Positions 9,528-47,976 of a stretch of 64,000 bases of DNA are shown here, piece by piece. Below the pieces are notes generated by a model. It worked only from the letters and a program-made list of their open reading frames with translations. It was not told the origin of the DNA and searched no databases. The position numbers and the translations under genes are program-made. Within the stretch, counting starts at the first letter, position 1; each line of letters begins with the position of its first letter. The DNA comes from an uncultured Paracoccaceae bacterium (GTDB lineage Bacteria > Pseudomonadota > Alphaproteobacteria > Rhodobacterales > Rhodobacteraceae), in assembly GCA_937895435.1 (NCBI GenBank), contig CALAXT010000024.1:1-64000 (forward strand), written 5' to 3'.

Positions 9528-9555
9528 GGACCGCTTTGCGCCTAAAGCGCGGTCC
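9528..9555. terminator. Hairpin between convergent genes, possible bidirectional terminator
   Basis: GGACC-GCTTT (9528-9537) pairs with AAAGC-(GC)-GGTCC (9544-9555), giving a bulged 10-bp stem with a 6-nt loop over the 3' ends of the DUF502 gene and bdhA. No clear U-tract follows on either strand, so the terminator call is weak. Confidence 0.35.
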
Positions 9556-10315
9556 ATCCGCCATCGACCGAAATGGTTGTGCCGGTGATCTGCGCGGCGT
9601 GATCTGAGCACAAAAAGACCGCTGTGCCACCGATCTGATCGGTGGTGGCAAACTCGCGTGACGGCTGCCGCGCCAGCATCACCTCGCGCACGACTGTGTC
9701 ACGGTCCATGCCATGGGTCTGCATTTGATCTGGTATCTGCGCTTCGACCAATGGGGTCAAAACATACCCTGGGCAAATTGCGTTCACGGTGATCTGCTGG
9801 CCCGCAGTTTCAAGCGCTGCAGTTTTGGTAAGCCCCACGATGCCGTGTTTTGCTGCAACATAGGCCGATTTAAACGGCGATGCTGTCAGCCCGTGGGCTG
9901 AGGCGATGTTGATCACCCTGCCCCATCCAGCCTGGCGCATCATTGGCAATGCCACCGCTGTTGTGTGAAAGGCTGAGCTTAGATTGATTGCCAAAACCGC
10001 ATCCCATTTTTCTGGGGCGAACGCTTCGATCGGCGCCACATGCTGGATACCGGCGTTATTGACCAAAATATCGCAAACACCCACTTCGGCAATCAGTCCC
10101 CGGCAGGCCGCGCCTTGCGCCATATCAGCGGCAATATAGCGTGCGCTGACACCAAATTCACGGCCCAGTTCACTTGCCAAAGCGTGATCTTCGGGCCGAT
10201 CTGTGAATGAGTTGATAACAATATCGGCCCCAGCCTTTGCCAATTGCCGGGCCACCCCCAGCCCAATGCCAGAGTTTGATCCAGTGATAACGGCGGTTTT
10301 TCCTGCAAGGAACAT
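9542..10315 (-). CDS. bdhA: 3-hydroxybutyrate dehydrogenase (SDR family)
   Basis: This 257-aa short-chain dehydrogenase oxidises (R)-3-hydroxybutyrate to acetoacetate with NAD+, in turnover of polyhydroxybutyrate or ketone bodies. It shows the cofactor motif GSNSGIG (12-18), NNAG (86-89), catalytic Ser139 and the YxxxK pair Tyr152/Lys156. The substrate-family marks HGLTASPFKSAYVAAKHG, CPGYVLTPLVEAQIPDQ and the terminal SVDGGWTAL match bacterial 3-hydroxybutyrate dehydrogenases. It is monocistronic and convergent with the DUF502 gene. Confidence 0.9.
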   Translation of the reverse strand: MFLAGKTAVITGSNSGIGLGVARQLAKAGADIVINSFTDRPEDHALASELGREFGVSARYIAADMAQGAACRGLIAEVGVCDILVNNAGIQHVAPIEAFAPEKWDAVLAINLSSAFHTTAVALPMMRQAGWGRVINIASAHGLTASPFKSAYVAAKHGIVGLTKTAALETAGQQITVNAICPGYVLTPLVEAQIPDQMQTHGMDRDTVVREVMLARQPSREFATTDQIGGTAVFLCSDHAAQITGTTISVDGGWTAL

Positions 10316-10423: not shown

Positions 10424-10503
10424 AAAAAAAAAGACGCCCGTACAAGACGGGCGTCAAGGTGTTGAGGCAGGTTTCATACAGGCAAGAAACCTATCGAGCA
10501 GTA
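10424..10503 (-). ncRNA. Candidate small RNA, about 80 nt, with its own terminator
   Basis: Reading leftward, a possible start near 10503 is followed by a perfect 7-bp hairpin (AGGTTTC / GAAACCT, arms 10492-10486 and 10475-10469, 10-nt loop TTGCCTGTAT), a single-stranded linker, then the 9-bp terminator hairpin and a nine-U tract. The layout of promoter-like boxes, hairpin, linker and Rho-independent terminator without an open frame is that of a trans-acting bacterial sRNA. I do not recognise a known family (it is not SRP RNA, and no 6S signature is evident to me). The transcript is inferred; the transcription start could be further upstream. Confidence 0.45.
10433..10455 (-). terminator. Strong orphan Rho-independent terminator, leftward
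   Basis: GACGCCCGT (10433-10441) and ACGGGCGTC (10447-10455) form a perfect 9-bp stem with a 5-nt loop. On the minus strand the stem is followed directly by nine U residues (10432-10424), the textbook intrinsic terminator. On the plus strand an A-run precedes the stem, so it is directional. No minus-strand protein gene ends just upstream of it. Confidence 0.85.
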
Positions 10504-10509
10504 AGCGTT

Positions 10510-10537
10510 CTATAAACCGTCGCGCAAAAGGGGCCAA
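10510..10537 (-). promoter_or_regulatory. Possible promoter of the small-RNA candidate
   Basis: On the minus strand TTGGCC (10537-10532) and TTATAG (10515-10510) are separated by 16 nt and match the -35 and -10 boxes at four positions each. They would place the start near 10503, leaving about 80 nt to the end of the U-tract. The match is modest. Confidence 0.35.
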
Positions 10538-10619
10538 GCTAAAAGTTTGAAACCGCTTTGATCCTTGCTTATTGTGGCGGCAAACCCACAGAACACGGGC
10601 AACATAAGGCAGGCAGGTC

Positions 10620-12440
10620 ATGACGATTTTGGGCGATTTTGGGCGCAGGGTTCTGTGTGTCATCGGGCTGGCGCTGTCAGGGCTGTTGCTTGGAACAGGC
10701 ACGCACGCGGCCCCCGCACATGGCATAGCTATGTATGGCCAACCAGCCTTACCACCGGATTTTGTGTCGCTGCCCTATGCCAACCCAGACGCCCCACAGG
10801 GTGGTGAGATCGTATTTGGTGAGGCAGGCGGTTTTGATTCGCTTAACCCCTTTATCCTTAAGGGCCGGGCCCCAGCTGGGCTGTCAGCCCTGACGGTAGA
10901 GACACTGATGGGCCGCAGTTACGCCGAGCCATTCACGCTTTACGGGCTGTTGGCCGAATCAGTTTTGGCGGGGGCGCAACGAGAATGGGTTGAATTCACC
11001 CTGCGGCCCAATGCCCGATTCGCAGATGGTGCGCCGGTTACAATTGAGGATGTTATTTGGTCTTTTGAAACGCTGGGCACCCAAGGCCACCCACGCTATC
11101 TGGGCAGCTGGAAAAAAGTGGCCAATACACAACAGACCGGCCCCCGTTCCGTACGATTTACATTTAATGAGATTGACCGCGAATTGCCGCTGATCTTGGG
11201 GCTGCGACCCATTTTGCAAAAGGCCCAATGGGCTGGGCGTGCGTTTGATGTCTCAAGCCTTGAGGCGCCTATTGGCTCGGGGCCCTATATCGTTGACCGC
11301 TTTGAGCCAGGCCGGTCTATCACCTATCGCAAAAATCCGAATTGGTGGGGTCAAGATCTGGCCTTTAACCGCGGCCGCCATAATTTCGAAACCATCCGCT
11401 ATGACTATTTTGGCGACGCCAGCGTGATATTTGAAGCGTTTAAATCGGGTGCCCTGTCCAGCTATCGTGAAAGCAGCGTGGCAAAATGGGCGCGAAACTA
11501 TGATTTTCCGGCCATTGCCTCGGGGGCCATTCTTAAATCTGAGGTGCCGCACCAACGCCCATCTGGGATCAACGGGCTGGCATTTAACACCCGCCGGCCG
11601 CTTTTTTTCGATTGGCGCGTGCGCGAGGCACTGATCTTAGCATTCAACTTTGAATTCATAAACAACACCCTCAATGCCGGCGCCCTGCCCCGCATTCGGT
11701 CGTATTTTTCAAACTCGGCTCTCGCCATGGGCCAAGGCCCGGCCACGGGACGTGTCGCGGCGGCGCTGGCCCCCTTTGCTGATAGCCTGCTGCCCGACAC
11801 GTTTGAGGGCTATGTTTTGCCCAAAAGCGATGGGTCTGAGGCCAACCGCACCAACACCCGCCGTGCCGCAGCCCTGCTGCGCGAGGCGGGCTGGCAAGTT
11901 ACAGATGGCCAACTGCGCGACGTCTCTGGGCGGCCATTTACCTTTGAGGTTTTGCTGGCCCAAGGCGCAGATGAGGCGCAATCAATCGTTACGATTTACG
12001 CCGAAGCGCTCAAACGTTTGGGCATCACTGTACGGGTTTCAACTGTTGATGCTGCGCAATATGTTGAGCGCACCAATACCTATGATTTCGACATGACCCC
12101 CTATGTCCGGGCTCTGTCGCTTTCGCCGGGAAATGAGCAGATGCTTTATTGGGGCCATGAGGGTGTCACCCAACCCGGATCGCGCAATTGGATGGGGATC
12201 GATAGCCCCGCCGCCGAGGCCATGATTGCACGCATGCTGTCAGCCGATGACCAGCAAGATTTTATTGCTGCCGCCCGCGCACTGGACCGGATCTTGACCG
12301 CAGGGCGCTACGTGATACCCTTTTGGTATTCCGATGTATCGCGGCTTGCCCATAAGAGGGTGTTGAAATTTCCGGGTAATTTGCCCATTTACGGCGACTG
12401 GATCGGCTTTCAGCCCGATGTCTGGTGGTATGAGGAGTAG
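10620..12440 (+). CDS. YejA-like extracellular solute-binding protein, family 5
   Basis: This 606-aa periplasmic binding protein belongs to SBP family 5 (oligopeptides, microcin C-like compounds). A signal peptide covers about residues 1-31, ending at an AHA-type site near GTHAAPA. The YejA-type opening is seen: LPYANPDAPQGGEIVFG then FDSLNPFIL. The GSGPYIVDRFEPGRSITYRK segment and YWGHEGVTQPGSRN near the C-terminus also fit. No YejB, YejE or YejF permease or ATPase is adjacent, so its transporter partners must lie elsewhere. The next gene starts 2 nt after its stop. Confidence 0.9.
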   Translation: MTILGDFGRRVLCVIGLALSGLLLGTGTHAAPAHGIAMYGQPALPPDFVSLPYANPDAPQGGEIVFGEAGGFDSLNPFILKGRAPAGLSALTVETLMGRSYAEPFTLYGLLAESVLAGAQREWVEFTLRPNARFADGAPVTIEDVIWSFETLGTQGHPRYLGSWKKVANTQQTGPRSVRFTFNEIDRELPLILGLRPILQKAQWAGRAFDVSSLEAPIGSGPYIVDRFEPGRSITYRKNPNWWGQDLAFNRGRHNFETIRYDYFGDASVIFEAFKSGALSSYRESSVAKWARNYDFPAIASGAILKSEVPHQRPSGINGLAFNTRRPLFFDWRVREALILAFNFEFINNTLNAGALPRIRSYFSNSALAMGQGPATGRVAAALAPFADSLLPDTFEGYVLPKSDGSEANRTNTRRAAALLREAGWQVTDGQLRDVSGRPFTFEVLLAQGADEAQSIVTIYAEALKRLGITVRVSTVDAAQYVERTNTYDFDMTPYVRALSLSPGNEQMLYWGHEGVTQPGSRNWMGIDSPAAEAMIARMLSADDQQDFIAAARALDRILTAGRYVIPFWYSDVSRLAHKRVLKFPGNLPIYGDWIGFQPDVWWYEE

Positions 12441-47898: not shown

Positions 47899-47976
47899 CG
47901 GGCCGTGGCGCAGTCTGGTTAGCGCGTCCGTCTGGGGGGCGGAAGGTCGCGAGTTCGAATCTCGCCGGCCCGACCA
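47899..47976 (+). tRNA. tRNA-Pro (anticodon GGG)
   Basis: The 78-nt gene folds as a standard cloverleaf with encoded CCA. The acceptor arms CGGGCCG and CGGCCCG pair fully, the D arm contains GGTTAGCGC, the anticodon stem TCCGT/GCGGA encloses the loop CTGGGGG with anticodon GGG (47934-47936), and the T arm has GAGTTCGAATCTC. The discriminator base is A. It reads CCC/CCU proline codons. Confidence 0.97.

Follow-up and report, generated by a model that had tools for sequence, protein, structure and literature searches.

What does an intrinsic terminator that points leftward serve in the gap between bdhA and a divergent gene for a solute-binding protein? The locus belongs to the window, by which we mean the whole 64,000-nucleotide stretch analysed here, and the initial annotation had read from it a possible new small RNA of about 80 nt, made from the minus strand and outlined by a perfect 9-bp terminator with nine U residues, a second perfect hairpin (AGGTTTC/GAAACCT) and promoter-like boxes. 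These parts were all recovered at the locus (Table 1). As claimed, the terminator is left without a user, with no minus-strand gene found ending there, bdhA starting beyond it and the SBP_bac_5 gene being divergent.

Table 1. Features of the small-RNA locus and its neighbours (positions in the window)
Feature	Position	Strand	Basis or remark
Small-RNA gene, probable StsR orthologue	10424..10502	-	79 nt with the full T run; promoter, core and terminator conserved; homologues across the family
40-nt core, RNA nt 1-40	10463..10502	-	Nearly invariant in Rhodobacteraceae
Hairpin 1, AGGUUUC / GAAACCU, 7 bp, loop UUGCCUGUAU	10469..10492	-	Sequence and fold
RNA nt 17-30	10473..10486	-	Perfect 14-nt complement of own mraZ leader (G000 contig 72, outside the window)
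Terminator hairpin, 9 pairs (7 G-C), 5-nt loop	10433..10455	-	Sequence and terminator scan
Nine-T run after the terminator stem	10424..10432	-	Sequence
-10 box TATAGA	10509..10514	-	Conserved in 142 loci
-35 box TTGGCC	10532..10537	-	Conserved in 142 loci; 17-nt spacer to TATAGA
A/T-rich block, TTTCAAACTTTTAG-like, ahead of the -35 box	10538..10553		Conserved over 142 loci
bdhA, short-chain (3-hydroxybutyrate) dehydrogenase of 257 aa; adjacent gene outside the RNA	9542..10315	-	Pfam adh_short
Divergent solute-binding protein, SBP_bac_5 type ("YejA-like"), 606 aa; neighbour	10620..12440	+	Pfam

Promoter, core and terminator across the family

Judging from the promoter spacing, transcription would start at 10502, from where the minus strand reads ACTGCTCGATAGGTTTCTTGCCTGTATGAAACCTGCCTCAACACCTTGACGCCCGTCTTGTACGGGCGTC, 5' to 3', followed by nine T; the loop of its first hairpin is TTGCCTGTAT. 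The length in the window genome is 75 to 79 nt, depending on the end point within the T run. The TTGGCC and TATAGA boxes are absent from the output of a generic promoter scan, which placed a promoter-like site on the plus strand, beginning at 10547 and overlapping the A/T-rich block; this block may also serve the promoter of the divergent gene. A small open reading frame within the RNA (ATGAAACCTGCC...) was considered and rejected, its stop and length not being conserved and 58 of the 149 loci running on for at least 12 codons. Elsewhere in the 64-kb window, a tRNA gene (47899-47973, +) is the sole Rfam match above the cut-off.

The 137-bp region was used as a BLAST query against 61 genomes, comprising its own, 36 of the same family and 24 of other families. 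Of the 36 same-family genomes, all but G033, which is 74% complete, gave a match with E ≤ 2.8e-13; among the 24 other-family genomes E was never better than 0.033. The survey was extended to 149 Rhodobacteraceae genomes, one per genus, using a 32-nt core pattern with up to two mismatches. As seen, the core is present in 142 of the 149 genera (139 exact, 3 with one mismatch), and a reversed control pattern gave 0. The seven misses are G029, G033, G083, G126, G157, G160 and G171, with G033 and G171 less than 75% complete; G029 does possess a diverged copy of the RNA, with 6 changes in the 40-nt core. The exact 40-mer also occurs in at least 118 contigs of a named collection, including Ruegeria, Paracoccus, Sulfitobacter, Leisingera, Yoonia and Rhodovulum.

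The flanking signals are conserved as well. These 142 distinct loci were picked by the core, so that conservation of the core itself is no evidence in the counts that follow, which concern the promoter and the T run. Both promoter boxes stand at a fixed distance from the core, with frequencies of T 1.00, T 0.90 and G 0.96 at -35 to -33 and of T 0.98, A 0.99, T 0.95 and A 0.94 at -12 to -9. A T run ends the RNA in all 142 loci, 71 to 81 nt from the core start (median, 76). For the alignment, 67 of 108 distinct RNA sequences were selected for variety, and variation was observed at one core column only. Hairpin 1 is invariant among them and gives no covariation signal either way; in the terminator, 7 of the 8 counted pairs changed on both sides, with 56 covarying cells compared with 11.4 after shuffling, a count that none of 500 shuffles reached. 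The initial annotation had named a lack of hairpin conservation in relatives as a ground for abandoning the RNA, and the opposite was found.

A covariance model built for the RNA (R1) was run over 190 genomes of the class. It gave three strong matches (103.7, 103.2 and 97.2 bits), all in Rhodobacteraceae, and 11 weak ones at 22.6 to 32.0 bits in nine other genomes. Nine weak loci were fetched, which in their best ungapped alignment differ from the 40-nt core at 14 to 21 positions; we therefore take the weak matches as chance and reject an occurrence of the RNA outside the family on this basis. Overall, because of the near-invariant core, the conserved promoter and the covariation of the terminator, the sequences indicate that the segment from 10502 to 10424 is an intergenic RNA gene and not a chance hairpin, and it is the conservation of promoter, core and terminator across Rhodobacteraceae that is decisive.

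Complementarity to the mraZ leader

In many relatives the BLAST search gave a second, weak match, to approximately nt 77 to 96 of the 137-bp query. Twenty of these sites were fetched, and their opposite strand mostly carries GCAGGTTTCATACAGGCA or a close variant. By tblastn with the MraZ of the window genome, 19 of the 20 stretches contain mraZ, with the site upstream of it. The mraZ gene is the first of the division and cell-wall (dcw) cluster. At one locus (L175) the search for the leader site failed, the leader having a deletion at that spot. In the window genome, the mraZ leader carries TTCATACAGGCAAG, perfectly complementary over 14 nt to the loop of hairpin 1 and its flanks; this site starts 213 nt before the mraZ start and is followed by the leader terminator. 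The loop had been proposed at the outset as a candidate seed, in agreement with this match.

To compare the duplexes with chance, the first 50 nt of each RNA were paired with the leader from the same genome, and 200 dinucleotide-shuffled leaders served as control; G002, for which no RNA locus was available, and G027, in which the site was not recognised, were left out. The RNA-leader duplexes beat the shuffles in 18 of 18 genomes, with 0 to 4 of 200 shuffles as good, the duplex of the window genome being the weakest in this respect (4 of 200). In many of these 18 genomes the 5' end of the RNA (CTGCTCG) also pairs with a conserved CGAGCAG in the leader. A pattern joining both sites, TCATACAGG-N25-55-GAGCAG, was found in 107 of 149 genera compared with 7 for the control, some of the 107 matches lying visibly outside any mraZ-type leader.

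Twenty genomes in which the pattern failed, or in which the RNA was missing or varied, were followed up; mraZ was present in 19 and the leader readable in 18. A complementary run of 9 to 18 nt is kept in all 12 of the RNA-bearing genomes, in several of them extended beyond the broken site. In six genomes missed by the core pattern the runs were of 15 nt (G160), 13 nt (G033), 9 nt (G126), 8 nt (G157) and 7 nt (G083 and G029). G029 pairs its own RNA over 10 nt, compared with 7 nt for the consensus RNA (nearly equal energies, -32.2 versus -31.4), which gives a weak hint that RNA and leader changed together there. The RNA variants of G015, G017 and G030 showed no compensatory change with the leader, that of G017 being cut by a contig end; such changes are barely visible because the core is near-invariant. 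In G083 and G126 the duplex energy beats simple shuffles despite the short runs and with no RNA detected, and therefore duplex energy alone is no proof of pairing. Complementarity to the mraZ leader nevertheless extends across the family, and a trans-acting role, as had been suggested for the RNA, is likely from these sequences.

The twentieth site (L160, in G032) falls in the 5' untranslated region of a gene resembling motB, where 20 nt directly ahead of the start codon are perfectly complementary to the RNA (contig 17, ~169540-169570; L160/L225), and motB is possibly a lineage-specific extra target in G032. As a general target motB was rejected, as one of 30 motB leaders carries the 20-nt perfect complement and the other 29 have runs of 0 to 7 nt.

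Two further observations concern the leaders and their surroundings. Most of the mraZ leaders fetched (e.g., L161-L174) contain a very conserved block, GAGCAGACATCCCCCCAGGTGG, whose C-rich portion stays outside the pairing with the RNA. Beside the mraZ leader of the window genome (L182; G000 contig 72, 209500-215500) there is a match to the ar14 RNA (RF02344, 73 bits), and several CCTCCTCCC hairpins were read downstream of a small DUF1127-like gene. This layout is presumably that of the CcsR cluster of Rhodobacter sphaeroides.

Relation to the small RNA StsR

From its general features and from the geometry of its leader, we take one genome of the set, G075, to be R. sphaeroides-like. As far as the available part of the report on the R. 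sphaeroides mraZ leader describes it, that leader is 268 nt long, its terminator yields the 206-nt RNA UpsM, an RNase E-dependent step gives a processed form of 130 nt, and a long mraZ leader with a terminator exists in the other Rhodobacteraceae examined there (PMC5089854). When the published leader length is applied to G075, the pairing site of the RNA falls on UpsM nt 54 to 71, the 130-nt product would start at nt 77, and the leader terminator ends where the 206-nt UpsM should end.

A small RNA with this target has been described. StsR ("sRNA targeting sRNA," formerly RSs0827) is a 72-nt RNA (PMC8307010); in the portions of the literature at hand it is controlled by RpoHI/RpoHII, abundant in stationary phase and bound to Hfq, and it pairs with UpsM and the dcw leader, altering their structures and letting RNase E cut (PMC8307010, PMC11354728, PMC8625941). 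The G075 RNA is 72 nt long when counted from the first core nucleotide through the fourth U. The conserved promoter letters, TTG and TAT, equal the RpoHI/HII motif given in the accessible text of PMC10673084 (TTG at -35, TAT at -12), although a housekeeping promoter looks alike. The RNA described here thus resembles StsR in being a stand-alone gene of about 72 nt with this type of promoter and with complementarity to the mraZ/UpsM leader adjoining the processing end. Hfq binding, RNase E dependence and expression, which are described for StsR, would be predicted features of the RNA of the window. Because the mraZ/UpsM-leader target, the 72-nt length, the promoter type and the cleavage geometry fit, we infer that this stand-alone small-RNA gene is an orthologue of StsR, with a probability of roughly 0.88. 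Of the parts of the initial proposal, an RNA with this seed is supported, a trans-acting RNA stands as likely, and novelty finds no support, the RNA being very probably an orthologue of StsR and present in nearly every genus sampled.

StsR could instead be another gene, and the RNA of the window a second small RNA of Rhodobacteraceae, so far without a name, whose pairing partner is likewise the UpsM/mraZ leader. R. sphaeroides has further RpoH-dependent RNAs, such as SorY, in the part of the literature at hand. In addition, were RSs numbers assigned by position, RSs0827 ought to lie closer to UpsM (RSs0682, 0.69 Mb in G075) than the RNA does, whose G075 locus is at 1.44 Mb. The published length of 72 nt, the target, the cleavage geometry and the promoter type nevertheless all fit the RNA, and we consider it unlikely that StsR is a separate gene. 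In the available text StsR is also described as pairing with the rpoE mRNA, beginning 10 nt past the GUG start codon; a search of G075 found no rpoE gene, and the rpoE of the window genome gave only a weak duplex (-15.9) around a start codon chosen by script. When pieces of the RNA sequence were searched in the full-text literature, no Rhodobacter paper, by title, was among the matches listed.

If the RNA is StsR, its mode of action could be as follows. Under stress and in stationary phase, RpoH-type sigma factors would read the TTG (-35)/TAT (-12) promoter, making an RNA of 72 to 79 nt, although a TTG/TATA promoter fits the housekeeping sigma factor too. With Hfq, the RNA would pair through its loop and the 3' arm of hairpin 1 with the long mraZ leader, joined in many relatives by its 5' end (CTGCTCG), and the same pairing would hit UpsM, the small RNA that this leader yields. 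The stem that closes the 5' domain of the leader would break on pairing, which would open the leader to RNase E. Co-folding predicts this breakage in both G075 and the window genome, the stem sequences of which differ. Cutting by RNase E would then lower dcw expression and slow growth. For the window organism, published work and folding are the grounds on which we infer expression, the sigma factor, the roles of Hfq and RNase E and an effect on division.

Alternative readings and meaning for the family

The neighbouring genes offer another way to read the terminator. It could be a premature terminator, or a riboswitch-like attenuator, in the 5' leader of bdhA, so that a transcript from 10502 either stops at 10424 or continues into bdhA, 108 bp further. 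In 107 of the 149 loci bdhA does lie downstream on the same strand within 600 bp, and the divergent solute-binding gene lies within 800 bp upstream in 137. However, bdhA is displaced 0.9 to 2.3 kb from the RNA in 9 loci and is outside the sequence at hand in 33, some of them short (133 of the 149 loci have more than 900 bp of downstream sequence, and 133 have more than 1,200 bp upstream), with the RNA unchanged in both groups. A constant position directly upstream of bdhA is thus not found, and in the predicted fold hairpin 1 overlaps no alternative terminator arm. Since bdhA moves away while the RNA stays, we reject a bdhA leader, and an attenuator at this site seems very improbable.

Known RNA families were compared as well, as the initial annotation had advised. 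No Rfam family reaches its cut-off at the RNA locus or in 19 further homologue-bearing loci, the twentieth sequence of that scan, L182, being the mraZ region of the window genome; yet target, length, promoter type and geometry match a published small RNA, as described above. The nearest family is RF00519 (ar8/suhB/MmgR), and a member of it with a role in the control of polyhydroxybutyrate storage would suit the neighbour bdhA. The RNA shares with this family a hairpin followed by a terminator, a similar size and a weak likeness in sequence, UUUCUUGCCU resembling the family 10-mer UUUCCUCCCU at 8 of 10 positions. The full-length match reaches 25.8 bits, compared with a gathering cut-off of 41 bits, and two other places in the window genome score higher while also below threshold (C57:9675-9751, minus strand, 33.9 bits; C64:9883-9962, minus strand, 29.6 bits); these two are possible ar8-type RNAs of that genome. 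At the same laxness, all 14 control genomes gave matches, one of them over the cut-off. The 10-mer itself is absent from the RNA, and the resembling stretch lies partly in hairpin 1, about half of it in the stem, whereas the 10-mer is single-stranded in ar8; the context also differs. Membership was therefore rejected, and we give it even less credence than the attenuator.

Among more distant comparisons, the Caulobacter ar8 RNAs and their sponge, CrfA and SisA-D, likewise involve a small RNA that pairs with a small RNA and are tied to feast and famine in the part of PMC12559287 at hand, but sequences, order and targets are other, making this an analogy and not a relative. The RNA could not be linked to "Intergenic 60" (80 nt) or "Intergenic 134" (84 nt) of Paracoccus denitrificans (PMC5107571), nor to the list for Ruegeria pomeroyi (PMC4809877), no matching coordinates being present in the available portions of these sources.

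The least credible reading is a chance hairpin that is never transcribed. Terminator-like sites are in themselves common enough, 9 of all grades being found between 8000 and 13000 against 6.4 ± 3.3 in shuffles; the terminator of the RNA exceeds the other eight in both base pairs and T-run length. The fold z-score is a modest -1.88, with 12 of 200 shuffles folding equally well. Near-invariance across genera, the promoter logo and terminator covariation nevertheless exclude a chance hairpin.

As an orthologue of StsR, the RNA is ordinary in kind; what deserves notice is how deeply it is conserved and that its match to the leader of a division gene runs through the family. Most of the Rhodobacteraceae genera sampled, and with them the small genome of the window, retain the RNA, its promoter and the complement in the division leader. 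The 67-sequence alignment and the covariance model R1 could seed an Rfam family. In the literature consulted, StsR has been studied in one phototroph. We lean, with some reserve, toward the view that pairing between the RNA and the mraZ leader is an RNA-RNA switch inherited from the ancestor of all Rhodobacteraceae, phototrophic or not, in which nearly all of the 5' half of the RNA would be frozen by folding and by multipoint pairing with the leader, one stress RNA would brake division in more than 100 genera, and some lineages would have added targets, such as motB in G032. Through the RNA, stress and starvation may thereby be coupled to a slowing of growth and, if this is true, a direct RNA brake on the division cluster would be a trait of the family, marine roseobacters included.
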